DNA of 64,000 nt from Metabacillus flavus (GTDB lineage: Bacteria > Bacillota > Bacilli > Bacillales > Bacillaceae). The DNA is taken from assembly GCF_018283675.1 (NCBI RefSeq), contig NZ_JAGVRK010000001.1, positions 3,162,001-3,226,000 on the forward strand. The letters are read 5' to 3'. The notes beneath the pieces are model-generated. The model saw only the letters and a list, made by a program, of their open reading frames with translations, was not told where the DNA came from and made no database searches. Shown in pieces: positions 26,817 to 33,440 of the stretch. Each line of letters begins with the position of its first letter. Position 1 is the stretch's first letter. Both the position numbers and the translations under genes were made by a program.

Positions 26817-27212
26817 TTATCTAAACTCTATACGGCAGCCTCCTCTCGTTTTCTCGCCTTTAAGATTAATGGTATGCATGCTGCTGCCTGCCTCCGATGA
26901 AAACGTCCCCTGGCTGCTCTCTTTAAAGGTTTCTTTCCAGATCATTCGTTTACGTTCGCTCCATTCAATGGTCAGCTCTCCTTCCTCCACCACTACATCG
27001 TATACAATCATCATCTTTTTCCCCTTTTTGAATACAAAATGATAATAGTCAACACCTGTATACTTCTTATAGGAAACTTCTAATTTTTTTCCAAAATGTT
27101 TATAAAAATAGCCCACTTTATAGACTCTATGGAATTTGATATATTTCCTTAGCATAAAGCCAATGACTAGAATGAATATTAATGATATCCAATTTGAGTC
27201 CAATTTTTTCAT
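26817..27212 (-). CDS. Hypothetical membrane-anchored protein
   Basis: A 131-residue protein. An N-terminal helix (WISLIFILVIGFMLRKYI) is followed by a strand-rich, basic domain (VDYYHFVFKKGKKMMIVYDV, ELTIEWSERKRMIW) that ends CRIEFR. AGAAGGGATG precedes the ATG. No known motif was recognised. It lies alone between the mrp terminator and another terminator, in the place where B. subtilis has yuxO directly. Confidence 0.65.
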   Translation of the reverse strand: MKKLDSNWISLIFILVIGFMLRKYIKFHRVYKVGYFYKHFGKKLEVSYKKYTGVDYYHFVFKKGKKMMIVYDVVVEEGELTIEWSERKRMIWKETFKESSQGTFSSEAGSSMHTINLKGEKTRGGCRIEFR

Positions 27213-27294
27213 CCCTTCTCATGATTCTCAAATTCCCCTAACGTTTTCTTATCCCTCTTGCGCTATTATTAAACAAAACGGTTCACGTAAATAA

Positions 27295-27332
27295 AAAGGA
27301 GCAGAATCAATTCTGCTCCTTCCGTTTATTTC
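27295..27332. terminator. Terminator downstream of yuxO
   Basis: AAAAAGGAGCAGAATCAATTCTGCTCCTTCCG forms an eleven-pair stem next to the yuxO stop. Confidence 0.8.
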
Positions 27333-28707: not shown

Positions 28708-29349
28708 TTAATCAATAATTGATTCAGACTTTGCAATTAAAACAGCCTCGGTTCTTGAGCCTACATTAAGTTTATTAAAAATAGAAGTCAGGCTATATTC
28801 AATGGAGCGCTTGCTTAAATGGAGGTTATCAGCAATTTCCTGATTGGTATGCCCCTTCTCGACCTCCTGCAAAATCGCTTTCTCCCTCTCATTCAGACAG
28901 TCCGTCTCAAGAACCTGCTCGGAATTCTTGATTTTCTGCTGAGATAGCAAGCTTTGCAGGTAACCATAAGGAAGAATGATTTCACCTTTGATCGCGTGAC
29001 GAATATATGCCAAAATCTTTTCTTTGGACTCAGCTTTATTGATTGCCCCATGGATCCCCATGCGAATTGCTTCTTCAAAATAATCTTCCACTTCATACCC
29101 TGTATAAAGAATGATCTTGCAATCCGATTTTTGCTCAACAATCCCTCTGGATAATTCCATCCCATTTGCATCGCCTAAATTCAAATCCATTAAAACCACA
29201 TCAAAAGCGGAGAAATCCATCTGCTCAACTGCCTCGAGTGTAAAAGGAGGATTCATAAAATCAACCGTTACCTCAGGATCCTTTTCTAAGATGGCTTTCG
29301 TACCCTCCCGGACTGCCGGGTGATCATCTACTACTAAAATATGTATCAT
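28708..29349 (-). CDS. comA: Competence response regulator ComA
   Basis: A 213-residue NarL/FixJ regulator. The receiver domain (residues 1-120) has Asp8, Asp9, the phosphoacceptor Asp55 in LMDLNLGDANG and ILYTGYEVEDYFEEAI. The C-terminal LuxR-type HTH is EKGHTNQEIADNLHLSKRSI, nearly identical to B. subtilis ComA. Phosphorylated by ComP, it drives srf/comS, degQ and other density-controlled genes. AGGAGGGCT lies close before the ATG of MIHILVVDD, and an 18-codon upstream extension is open but unlikely. Confidence 0.95.
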   Translation of the reverse strand: MIHILVVDDHPAVREGTKAILEKDPEVTVDFMNPPFTLEAVEQMDFSAFDVVLMDLNLGDANGMELSRGIVEQKSDCKIILYTGYEVEDYFEEAIRMGIHGAINKAESKEKILAYIRHAIKGEIILPYGYLQSLLSQQKIKNSEQVLETDCLNEREKAILQEVEKGHTNQEIADNLHLSKRSIEYSLTSIFNKLNVGSRTEAVLIAKSESIID

Positions 29350-29390
29350 AGCCCTCCTACCTCTCCATGAAGCTAGTCCTATTGTATAAA

Positions 29391-29421
29391 AAAGACTTGG
29401 CATTCGCCAAGTCTTTAATTG
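29391..29421 (-). terminator. Hairpin between comP and comA (attenuator or partial terminator)
   Basis: On the minus strand, TTAAAGACTTGGCGAATGCCAAGTCTTTTTT is a stem of nine pairs with a T run. It lies between comP and comA, so it should reduce read-through unless comA has its own promoter. Confidence 0.75.
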
Positions 29422-29427
29422 AAAAAG

Positions 29428-31734
29428 TTATATTTCAATTACTGCTTTAAATCCATGTCCTCTGGAAGTCTCAATTGTGAGCGTGCCTTTTAACGCTTTT
29501 ACACGCTCGGTTATACCGGAAAGTCCCATACTTTCGGAACTATAGCTAATCTCATTTTGATCGAAGCCAATTCCGTCATCCTCATAATGCAGAACAATTT
29601 TATCCTTAATGCAAACAAGCATGATTAGGACATTGCTCGCATGTGAGTGCTTATTCGCATTCGTAAGCAGCTCCTGAATAATCCTATATAAGTTCAGCTG
29701 CACATCCAAATCCGTATTAGGCTGGAACTTCCCAGCATTCATCCGGATCTCAAAATCTGCAATTTCTTTATATTGTGTGACAAGTTTATTCAGAGCCTTT
29801 ACCAGGCCTAAATCATACAGCAGCTGCGGACGAAGCTCCTGACACGTTTCTCTAGTCGTTTTAATAATCTTGGTCATATTCTCATTCATATCCTCAAGCT
29901 GATCCTTCAAATCGGCTGGGGCAGCCTCAAGCTCCACAAGCGCGACTTCGCACTGCCTCTTTAAAGAAATCAAATCCTGCAAAACCGAATCATGCAAATC
30001 CTTCGCCAGGTTCGACCGCTGTTTTTCTTCTATTGAAAAGAAGAGTTTTGTCAGCCAGGAAGGATTTGTTCCTTCTTTTTGAACGGTCTCCAAATGGTTC
30101 ATGAGTTCTTCAATCTTTAAGAAGTTCTCAAGGGACACGTTAGTATAAAAGGAAAGTGCTTTGAGCCATGAGATTTCATCTCTGGTTAGTTTTGGAGTAT
30201 TGATGGATGAGAGGCAGAGAAGTACGTAATTTCGATTGTCTGTTTCACCAATATTTATTAAAAAACCACGGTCGACTTCTTTTATTTTTCCAATTTCAGA
30301 TATTACATTAACGCATTCATTCTTATAAAAATCAATATCATCTAAATTAGGATTAACATCTTTTGCTATTACCTTATTGTCTTTGCTAACTTCAAGAAAA
30401 AATGCTTTATTAACCAATAGCACGTCTGTAATAGTTCTTTTAAGTTCTGTTATTACCTGGTTTAGATTGCTTGCTTTTCTTAATTCACTTGTATATTTAA
30501 ATATGCTATCCTGATAATTATATTTTTCTGAAAACCTTTTAAGCTTAAATCTAAAGTCAAAAATTTCCTTGAGATAAAATACAACTAACATAATTAAATA
30601 AATAAAAATAGATAATTGTATTGGATAAAAGACACTTGTTTTGTTATCTAAAGTAAGGGCTACAAAAACTGTTATCAATGTAGGCAAAATAGCTAAAAGG
30701 CCATAGTACCTAAAACGTCCTAGGAGAAATTCTATGTCGTAAATTTTTGTAGCTAAAAATTGATATACAAGAGAAAACGGTATTAGAAGCAAAAAAGAAG
30801 CTAGTGCAGCCGGTGGGAAAATATGTTTGTTAAAGATTACAAAAGGCAAGATATATAATATTAAGAAAGGTGAAAACGCAAGCACATTAGTTATAATCAA
30901 GACTTTCACAAAATATTTCTGTTCGGAAAGTTTTACTTTCCTTAATCCTATTATTTTAAGGGTAAATATTAATATAAATAAAGTAAGGAAAGAAACTAAA
31001 TTTAATGCCTTGACCTCAGTATAAGTAGCGTATACATAAGTATTTGTAATATTTCTAAATACGTCTATTGAGACATTTATAAAAAGTATTCCATAAGCTA
31101 AGTATACAAATCTTTTATTAAATAACTCTACGCCAATTTCCTTAAAGTAGTGGTATATAAATTGGAGATAAGTAACAGGAACTAACAGAAATAAAGAGAC
31201 ATTAGTAAATCGCCCAAATAAATCTCCCCTGGACGAACCACCCGTACTTAAATATGCCATTGATATCGCGAACAAGAACCAGATGAGTATAGAAGCAGAT
31301 TGCAGGTTCATTTTTCTATTTGATTTGTAAATAAAATAACTGCAAAACATACATAGTAGAAACAGCGTAAAAGGAATGACAATTAAAAATAAATTTTGAT
31401 AATACAGAACAGATTCTGATACCTTTAAATTAATTTCTTCAGAACCTCTTTTAATTTTAAGAGATTCAAGTTGTTCAAGTAAGCCATATTTAGCCGTTTG
31501 AGAATGGAGTTGAGGATCTTTTCCATTAATTTCAAGGACAAGATCCCCAGGCATTAAATTTTTTTCAGACCATGTTTTTGGCTCTACTTCACTAACATAA
31601 AATTCACCATTACTTTTTGGAATTGCAGCAGCCCCAATATAAGGGAATTTCACAGTTATATAAGAGAAATATATGACTAAAATACAACTAATAATTAAAG
31701 TTATATAGTAGGTCTTTTTGTTGTTGAAAACCAT
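29428..31734 (-). CDS. comP: Pheromone sensor histidine kinase ComP
   Basis: A 768-residue membrane kinase. After a first helix comes an extracellular PDZ-like segment (NLMPGDLVLEINGKDP). A cluster of about seven further helices follows, then a GAF-like linker. The kinase core is of the HisKA_3 type with the phosphoacceptor His near residue 581 (NLAKDLHDSVLQDL) and an ATPase domain with DDGIGF and SMGLSGITERV. It senses the modified ComX peptide and phosphorylates ComA. The first two thirds is much richer in A+T than the kinase core, as in polymorphic comQXP loci. The ribosome site is weak (AAGGGATG). Confidence 0.94.
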   Translation of the reverse strand: MVFNNKKTYYITLIISCILVIYFSYITVKFPYIGAAAIPKSNGEFYVSEVEPKTWSEKNLMPGDLVLEINGKDPQLHSQTAKYGLLEQLESLKIKRGSEEINLKVSESVLYYQNLFLIVIPFTLFLLCMFCSYFIYKSNRKMNLQSASILIWFLFAISMAYLSTGGSSRGDLFGRFTNVSLFLLVPVTYLQFIYHYFKEIGVELFNKRFVYLAYGILFINVSIDVFRNITNTYVYATYTEVKALNLVSFLTLFILIFTLKIIGLRKVKLSEQKYFVKVLIITNVLAFSPFLILYILPFVIFNKHIFPPAALASFLLLIPFSLVYQFLATKIYDIEFLLGRFRYYGLLAILPTLITVFVALTLDNKTSVFYPIQLSIFIYLIMLVVFYLKEIFDFRFKLKRFSEKYNYQDSIFKYTSELRKASNLNQVITELKRTITDVLLVNKAFFLEVSKDNKVIAKDVNPNLDDIDFYKNECVNVISEIGKIKEVDRGFLINIGETDNRNYVLLCLSSINTPKLTRDEISWLKALSFYTNVSLENFLKIEELMNHLETVQKEGTNPSWLTKLFFSIEEKQRSNLAKDLHDSVLQDLISLKRQCEVALVELEAAPADLKDQLEDMNENMTKIIKTTRETCQELRPQLLYDLGLVKALNKLVTQYKEIADFEIRMNAGKFQPNTDLDVQLNLYRIIQELLTNANKHSHASNVLIMLVCIKDKIVLHYEDDGIGFDQNEISYSSESMGLSGITERVKALKGTLTIETSRGHGFKAVIEI

Positions 31735-31763
31735 AAAAACATCCCTTGTAGTTTATTGCAAGA

Positions 31764-31925
31764 TCAATACCAGAACATGTTGACAGTTCGGCCGGCGTCA
31801 ATCAGCCCCTCTAACAATCCTTTTAAATCATCTAATTTATCTAATCCTAAAATGCTGGCCTCTCCATTAACAACTTTTTCAAGAACCTCTGGATTCTCTA
31901 CTAAATAGTTTACGATTTCTTGCAT
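31764..31925 (-). CDS. comX: ComX pheromone precursor (53 residues)
   Basis: A 53-codon frame between comQ and comP, starting MQEIVNYLVENPEVLEKVVN and ending GRTVNMFWY. The N-terminal part, with a leader-like helix and GEASILGLD, matches the ComX pattern. The C-terminal Trp52 is the expected residue for isoprenyl modification by ComQ, and the mature pheromone would be a short peptide from the tail. TAGGAGATGAAAAAG precedes the ATG. In B. subtilis pheromones that I recall, Trp is third from the end. Here it is next to last, so this is a distinct pherotype. Identity rests on position, size and tail. Confidence 0.9.
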   Translation of the reverse strand: MQEIVNYLVENPEVLEKVVNGEASILGLDKLDDLKGLLEGLIDAGRTVNMFWY

Positions 31926-31947
31926 TCTTTTTCATCTCCTAAATGGC

Positions 31948-32889
31948 TTATTTTATCAAATGAGATTTTAATATCTCAATTCGATCAGTTGTTAATGGCA
32001 GGTTATTCATAGCTGTAGTCGCTTTTTGGATGGCTATCTGCTTCATCACATTTAAGTAATGTGTTACACCTGATTTAAGCAGTACCTCTTTATACGTCTT
32101 CATGTCGCCATATTGTTTTTCAAAAGTTTTACCACTCTCAATAAATTCAAGTAATTCCTTAGATGTTTCATTAAATTGTCTTTTTATATATAAAAGTGCA
32201 AGTGTATTTTTCTGAGCAGACAGATCACTTTTATGTAGTTGAAATAAGTCACGAAAATCATTCTCAGTCTGAGCTGCAATGCCAATCTGCACCGCATACT
32301 CATGGACTACAGGAATCTCACTTCCATATGAATACATGGTTCCTATCATGGAGGCCATCGCGATGAGGGAACCAGACTTGCGTTTCATCATTTCTAAACA
32401 TGCTTCTTCTGTATCCGCAGATCCGGTCAAATCTTCGTGCTGCCCCGTCATTGCGTTAATAGAATAGTTATTTACTAAAGGAATCAGCAAACCGCTGCGG
32501 TCCGTTTCAGCTATCATCTGAAGACTGATCGTATAGATAAGCGTTGAAAGATTCAGGGCTTCTCCAGGAGGAATCTGCATCCATGGCTCAGAAAAATTAT
32601 CCTGGTCTTCCAAATCATCAAAAATATCAAATGACAGCGCATAAAGTTCAACTGCGGCCGCAAGTTTATGCAAATCCTCAATGAACTGTTCAGACCGCCC
32701 TTGTTCTGCCGCAAATAACATCCCATGGATATAGGTCAAGTTTCCAAAAAAGGCCTGATCCTTCGTGCCGATAAACGACAAAATTCGATCCCGGGCTGCG
32801 GTATTTTTCACTTTGGAGGTTACCGATTGCGCAGATGCCTTTATTACTGCGTCGAAGTTCAAGTGTAATTGGTCACTAATTGCAATCAC
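31948..32889 (-). CDS. comQ: ComX isoprenyl transferase ComQ
   Basis: A 313-residue polyprenyl-synthase-like enzyme. The first Asp-rich motif is visible in SFDIFDDLEDQDN near residue 98, and the second is shortened to ENDFRDLF, as in ComQ. It attaches a geranyl or farnesyl group to the ComX tryptophan and is needed for pheromone maturation. The start is GTG with AAAGGGG very close, so the exact start is uncertain. comX begins 22 bases after its stop. The DNA is A+T rich like comX and the front of comP. Confidence 0.9.
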   Translation of the reverse strand: MIAISDQLHLNFDAVIKASAQSVTSKVKNTAARDRILSFIGTKDQAFFGNLTYIHGMLFAAEQGRSEQFIEDLHKLAAAVELYALSFDIFDDLEDQDNFSEPWMQIPPGEALNLSTLIYTISLQMIAETDRSGLLIPLVNNYSINAMTGQHEDLTGSADTEEACLEMMKRKSGSLIAMASMIGTMYSYGSEIPVVHEYAVQIGIAAQTENDFRDLFQLHKSDLSAQKNTLALLYIKRQFNETSKELLEFIESGKTFEKQYGDMKTYKEVLLKSGVTHYLNVMKQIAIQKATTAMNNLPLTTDRIEILKSHLIK

Positions 32890-33074: not shown

Positions 33075-33215
33075 TTAAGAAACCTTTACATATGCGTATT
33101 TGTCATACTTATCAATGCTTTTGTTAATGGATTGCAAGGATTGTTTGGTTTCACGAATTTCCTTTTCCAGCTGGTGAAGAATCTGTGTCAGTTCTTCAAT
33201 CTTATGTTGTGTCAT
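33075..33215 (-). CDS. degQ: Degradation enzyme regulator DegQ (46 residues)
   Basis: A 46-residue protein (MTQHKIEELTQILHQLEKEI, then INKSIDKYDKYAY) of the same length and pattern as B. subtilis DegQ. DegQ helps phosphate transfer from DegS to DegU and so raises production of secreted degradative enzymes. It is activated by ComA in B. subtilis. AAGGAGTGTGG precedes the ATG. It lies directly upstream of comQ, separated by two terminators, as in B. subtilis. Confidence 0.93.
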   Translation of the reverse strand: MTQHKIEELTQILHQLEKEIRETKQSLQSINKSIDKYDKYAYVKVS

Positions 33216-33440
33216 CGCTTCCACACTCCTTCTTTTAGATCAGGCTGGCGAATGGGAAGCCACTAGCCTTTGTTAACTTAATTGTATAGGAGTGTAGACC
33301 GTTTGTAACCGAAAATAAGGCGAAATTCTCAGTGCGTGATACCGCAAACCTTTCAATAGTCCATTGTGTTTATATTTACGTGATTTTCAGTCGTGTTTAT
33401 TATCCTATAAACCTGGGCTATTAGAGTCTGAATACTCATT

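Follow-up and report, generated by a model that had tools for sequence, protein, structure and literature searches.

A ComX pheromone gene with a penultimate tryptophan in the comQXPA locus of Metabacillus flavus

The window examined in this study, a stretch of 64,000 nucleotides from Metabacillus flavus, holds the complete degQ-comQ-comX-comP-comA cluster of this Metabacillus relative. We consider it very probable that its comX is a working-type pheromone gene of a complete comQXPA locus for quorum sensing, by which cells gauge their own numbers, that its next-to-last tryptophan (Trp) represents the ancestral layout, and that it forms part of an exchangeable allele. The gene is of an ordinary kind, with a layout that is unlike that of the characterised pheromones yet usual among its relatives. 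At the level of sequence comparison, the gene, the cluster, its motifs, the distribution of the layout, the tree pattern and the allele exchange are established.

The comX gene and its cluster

The first-pass annotation had proposed a hidden comX gene of 53 codons between comQ and comP, and such a gene is present on the minus strand (31764..31925), where an open reading frame with an ATG start encodes a precursor of 53 aa (MQEIVNYLVENPEVLEKVVNGEASILGLDKLDDLKGLLEGLIDAGRTVNMFWY, translated from the ORF) and the stop codon lies directly 3' of Y53. A Shine-Dalgarno-like AGGAGA, read from the sequence, is found 9 nt 5' of the comX ATG (31935..31940, minus strand). The Pfam ComX family (PF05952) matches residues 1-31 (E 1.2e-9; 38.3 bits, the cut-off being 25), the variable tail lying outside the match. 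A search of the window ComX against NCBIfam gave no match, so it is plausible that the gene would be hidden from automatic annotation. The frame is not a chance one, given the Pfam match, the pattern of codon differences to the nearest relative, G001 (17 synonymous, 2 non-synonymous), and the conservation of the peptide across the genera sampled in the sequence comparison. Translation bears out the earlier reading of the tail, GRTVNMFWY, in which the sole Trp, residue 52, is followed by one residue. With W52 of 53, the precursor agrees with the family in size and Trp placement (approximately 50-75 aa, Trp near the C-terminus); its Trp is second from the C-terminus, however, and not third or fourth as in the B. 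subtilis group.

The genes degQ, comQ, comX, comP and comA follow one another on a single strand, each product has the domains expected of it, and the four comQXPA genes are adjacent, with the domains of both ComP and ComA present. The comQ gene (31948..32889, minus strand) belongs to the Trp prenyltransferase family (Pfam polyprenyl_synt, E 1.2e-15), and its product matches solved prenyl synthases in a profile search. Trp prenylation by ComQ is reported to require DDxxD and ND (or GD) motifs (PMC5331326), and the window ComQ carries DDLED as its FARM and NDFRD as its pseudo-SARM. The comP gene (29428..31734, minus strand) encodes a receptor histidine kinase of 768 aa, with HisKA_3 at residues 573-638, HATPase_c at 679-767 and a weak PDZ-like match at 42-80, while comA (28708..29403, minus strand) encodes a response regulator with a receiver and a LuxR-type DNA-binding domain. 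Upstream of comQ lies degQ (33075..33224, minus strand; Pfam E 1.5e-21, NCBIfam DegQ E 2e-28), a probable ComA target. A candidate ComA box (TTGCGGTATCACGCAC; 33332..33347, minus strand) upstream of degQ has 2 mismatches to the consensus. The window contains 5 ComA-box-like sites against 2.08 expected by chance, an expectation computed for the window only and weak alone; on window evidence alone the box was therefore rejected as too little above chance. It is retained as a candidate only together with similar 2-mismatch sites found 95-136 bases upstream of degQ in 10 of the 10 relatives with a recognised degQ (42 loci, L057-L098, scanned over their first 4200 bases, with degQ recognised by pattern in 10). 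The same genome (G000), whose named neighbours are Bacillus sp. SJS, Metabacillus mangrovi and M. kandeliae, also contains two ComK genes (G000:C1:1133467-1133913 and G000:C1:3646313-3646759).

Compared to known systems, the locus resembles ComQXPA of B. subtilis 168 and RO-E-2 in gene order, in the N-terminal domain of ComX, in the ComQ motifs and in ComP and ComA; in those strains, however, the Trp is third or fourth from the end and the pseudo-SARM reads NDxx(A/G), whereas in the window the Trp is second and the motif is NDxxD. Loci of the same kind outside the B. subtilis clade were described in a 2014 census, in whose ComX the C-terminus is the most variable part and the Trp is near the end; the available text of that paper contains no statement of Trp position counted from the end (PMC4008528). 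The ComX of B. licheniformis belongs to the same family as the window ComX but has its Trp third from the end, and recombinant comQX of that species yielded a 13-residue peptide, EAGWGPYPNLWFK, with the modification of the Trp left open (PMC5385187). In Paenibacillus alvei, PalQ has, like the ComQ family, an isoprenoid-synthase fold and attaches a prenyl group to a Trp close to the peptide C-terminus; its substrate PalX is an NHLP-type precursor with the Trp last, and PalQ shares at most 25% identity with ComQ (PMC10853753). The window peptide differs from PalX in having a Tyr after the Trp and a Pfam match to ComX.

Position of the tryptophan inside and outside Bacillus

A penultimate Trp was found in 74 of the 80 comQ-linked ComX outside Bacillus sensu stricto (taken as genus group g6, an inferred assignment) and in 2 of the 44 inside, where the Trp otherwise stands third to seventh from the end or, in the natto type, twentieth. 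These counts derive from 147 ComQ places, of which the family search contributed 82, the order search 48 and the class search 17, with ComQ matches in 79 of 80 family, 63 of 397 order and 32 of 398 class genomes. Searches at the level of order, class and phylum draw samples from wider groups, with at most five candidates per genome, and may miss second loci. The comX frame was chosen beside comQ by position and ribosome-binding site, which gave a ComX with Trp for 124 of the 147 places. The 23 places dropped comprise 19 without a comX candidate, two whose candidates lacked a Trp (the second place of G139, and G158) and two removed by eye (G494 and G517, where the frame was far from comQ, with no ComX-like start and no kinase frame after it); with G494 and G517 kept in, the penultimate count would be 74 of 82. 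Standing outside the count are the detached ComX of G009, G604 and G628 (Trp second from the end) and G507 (Trp last), the ComX of G1174 (Trp last), and the antiparallel candidates of G390 (second) and G018 (fourth). Recovery of the published tails QWGD, GIFWEQ, DWHY and NLWFK within g6 serves as a check on the method, and 63 named loci, kept apart from the count as many are the same genomes, agree with the census. A Fisher test on the layout counts gave p 4e-24, which is not a fair probability because the counts are of related sequences, and it was set aside as evidence.

The six non-penultimate ComX outside Bacillus are those of the second loci of G008 and G026 (AWRN), G129 (MWKKLY), G199 (DYWYPK), G468 (YWVS) and G816 (YWRP). 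Of the 31 genera, 25 have only penultimate ComX, 4 are mixed and 2 never show the layout. Precursors of the 74 penultimate ComX are 51-59 aa long and the tail after the Trp is constant at one residue, which is of 15 kinds (two of the peptides end in WW); the fixed property of penultimate ComX is the distance of the Trp to the C-terminus. Tyr or Phe directly precedes the Trp in 66 of the 74, compared to 9 of the 44 Bacillus ComX. The first-pass annotation had regarded the penultimate Trp as an oddity, which is true in relation to the characterised pheromones but not among the relatives outside Bacillus sensu stricto, where it is the usual state. Its placement of the modified Trp third from the end in the B. 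subtilis group was partly correct, in that this position occurs; the characterised ComX also include Trp fourth from the end, and that of the natto type is internal (PMC5331326). The layout was not found to be common in CHARACTERISED ComX; it is in uncharacterised ones that it is common. No statement of a penultimate Trp as a rule outside Bacillus was found in a literature search of text open to us, with subscription papers, figures and supplements beyond its reach.

Several unusual loci were met in these searches. At L017 (G031), L163 (G095) and L164 (G101), a comQ with intact motifs and a comP stand 44-56 nt apart with no comX between them, and no further ComX was found in these three genomes at E up to 0.1; they are possible receivers without a signal. 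In G009, taken as Metabacillus arenae, a comX (..HYWQ) and comP lie apart from comQ-comA (L235:1329-1662), with a Trp-less ComX-like frame of 59 aa ahead of them. ComX-like frames antiparallel to and after comQ occur at L222 (G390, ..HPQGWR) and L198 (the second locus of G018, ..DTWKPS), and they resemble antiparallel loci described earlier (PMC4008528). Outside the class, 12 new ComQ-like places were recorded, two without a locus and ten examined; the ComQ-like gene runs 11-20 nt into a long next frame, leaving no room for a comX between them, in seven of the ten (L239, L241-L244, L246 and L247), and is followed first by a response regulator in L240 and L245. Plasmid homologues of ComQ were identified in 7 of 72,556 records, including NZ_CP085444.1 and CP021891.1, and a comX with the tail SYWK is located on G411:C3, a putative counterpart of a Priestia megaterium plasmid. 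Two Stenotrophomonas rhizophila plasmids (CP065518.1 and CP031730.1) have a ComQ-like match scoring as that of a Lysinibacillus fusiformis plasmid, and are possibly mislabelled records. A phage origin was rejected, as none of 50,697 phage records gave a match to ComQ.

ComQ, the tail and the history of the layout

The first-pass annotation took the position of the Trp to call for either an unusual ComQ or another mode of trimming. This proposal is not supported: the penultimate position is the commonest outside Bacillus, and the RO-E-2 ComQ is tolerant, accepting Trp second, third or fourth from the end in vitro (PMC5331326), so that a special ComQ for the penultimate Trp is probably unneeded. 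It is unlikely that the ComQ pocket of this group is specialised to gauge how far the Trp lies from the carboxyl end, with a part played by the fifth pseudo-SARM position. Although this position is Asp in the window and Ala or Gly in Bacillus, and NDxxD is found in 56 of the 74 penultimate ComQs outside Bacillus compared to 0 of 44 in Bacillus, the Asp is absent from 18 of the 74 and present in 2 of the 6 non-penultimate outsiders. A special ComQ residue as the cause of the layout was rejected, as NDxxD follows clade and six independent pairs show no significant association. Further evidence against a specialised pocket comes from the licheniformis group, where the ComQs of G068 (Trp second) and G066 (Trp third) are identical at 282 of 289 positions (97.6%), though the G068 system may itself be broken. 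G068 looks like ATCC 14580, and its 54-aa ComX and 289-aa ComQ fit the published table. The possible breakage is suggested by this resemblance, since the ComP listed for ATCC 14580 has only 408 aa (PMC5385187).

The state of the G068 system also bears on whether the window comX could be a decayed allele, its longer tail cut by a stop codon and its pheromone dead. A penultimate-Trp comX in a genome resembling a strain with a shortened ComP would fit decay, as would a window tail one residue below the shortest characterised tails (PMC5331326); nevertheless, the chance of this is very slight, given that 74 of the 80 comQ-linked ComX outside Bacillus stop at this very position, that comQ, comP and comA are intact in the window, and that synonymous differences to G001 far outnumber non-synonymous ones. 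Alternatively, the last residue may be trimmed, in which case the mature pheromone would, like PalX, have the modified Trp as its last residue. PalQ modifies a C-terminal Trp only (PMC10853753), the C-terminus of natto ComX is trimmed (PMC5331326), Trp is the final residue of two distant ComX relatives, and the variability of the last residue (15 kinds in 74) points the same way. Trimming is nonetheless improbable, as the RO-E-2 ComQ takes a position-2 Trp untrimmed and its best-known products keep their tail (PMC5331326), and a single residue kept constantly after the Trp would be surprising were it removed in every case.

The reading of the window comX as a working-type gene with an ancestral layout draws on the ComQ phylogeny. 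In a tree of 124 rows, rooted at the midpoint, a single branch (SH-aLRT 97) sets Bacillus apart from all other rows, and at least 7 layout changes are needed; in a tree of 88 rows plus two distant ComQs, with the root placed by the analyst, the Bacillus clade has a support of 99/97 and there are 9 layout changes. In both trees every sister row of Bacillus is penultimate, as are most rows further out, which makes the penultimate Trp the simplest ancestral state for Bacillus and Metabacillus together; because Bacillus forms a single clade next to lineages with a penultimate Trp, the characterised pheromones of B. subtilis appear to be derived. It is therefore probably the well-studied B. subtilis form that is the exception, and the penultimate Trp that is the usual layout among its relatives. 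The ComX of the two distant relatives (G507 and G1174; loci L236 and L238) end in Trp itself (..VPFYW and ..PLLYW). A more speculative idea, which we put forward tentatively and think rather doubtful, is that the residues after the Trp are an evolving ruler, with none in these two distant lineages, exactly one in most Bacilli, and two or more only once the ComQ of Bacillus sensu stricto had ceased to sense the free C-terminus, as marked by the disappearance of the fifth pseudo-SARM Asp. If this were true, the B. subtilis pheromones would be a relaxed exception and the penultimate-Trp pheromones a large untouched class.

An exchangeable pherotype block

There is strong support from sequence comparison for comQ, comX and the N-terminal half of comP behaving as an exchangeable pherotype allele, and the earlier suggestion of a distinct pherotype is well supported in the same way, by a block swap with sharp borders between the relatives G001 and G005 (Bacillus sp. 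SJS). In this comparison the block (30200..32650, no strand) spans ComQ from approximately residue 90 on, comX, and ComP from residue 1 to approximately 511. The two genomes are identical in ComA (100%) and a TerC-like protein (100%) and 87% identical in the C-terminal half of ComP, but only 77% in ComQ, 68% in ComX and 49% in the N-terminal half of ComP, with 4 of 9 tail residues shared. At the DNA level (300-bp bins), the flanks are 97-100% identical and the region from 30300 to 32700 is 58-79% identical; the exceptions in the flanks are 27000-27300 (84%, over 109 aligned bases beside an indel) and the border bin at 30000 (90%). The borders fall near 30200, about ComP residue 511 and N-terminal to the kinase domain, and near 32600-32650, about ComQ residue 90.

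Among the six ComX of the window's genus that were compared, those of the window and G001 agree at 8 of 9 tail positions, with 84% identity between the N-terminal halves of the ComPs; G005 and M. mangrovi agree at 9 of 9 tail positions and are 73% identical in the ComP N-terminal half but only 86% identical in ComA. Informative sites in four genomes favour the species grouping in the flanks (187:7:2) and the allele grouping in 30300-32549 without the two border bins (267:41:35), with the G001 block grouping with the window allele and the G005 block with that of M. mangrovi. In the G001/G005 comparison, the N-terminal half of ComP follows the ComX tail; the case of a block polymorphic between otherwise near-identical genomes is one of these two relatives of the window's species. 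Exchangeable blocks are a familiar pattern of B. subtilis pherotypes. The exchange of comQ-comX-comP(N) between close strains is common to those pherotypes (PMC5385187, PMC4008528) and to the Metabacillus pair, whose systems have a penultimate Trp.

For prenylation at W52, processing, secretion, receptor specificity and output, we infer the following sequence of events. The 53-aa precursor would offer Trp52 near its free C-terminus, ComQ would add an isoprenyl group to it, and, after removal of the N-terminal part, a short hydrophobic tail (approximately VNMFWY, modified at its Trp) would exit the cell. The tail would then bind the N-terminal membrane half of its cognate ComP, leading to phosphorylation of ComA, which would act on targets such as degQ. 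In the explanation that we favour, a Trp second from the end is the ancestral and usual layout in the Bacilli sampled, the tail was lengthened in Bacillus sensu stricto, and the tail, ComQ and the N-terminal half of ComP together form one exchangeable pherotype allele.

Pherotype chemistry is known almost solely from the B. subtilis group. If the penultimate Trp is the usual layout, the rules drawn from that group on how ComQ finds its Trp would be rules on an exception. In the G001/G005 pair, nature has exchanged an entire pherotype while the background stayed almost constant, which makes the specificity between tail and receptor testable.
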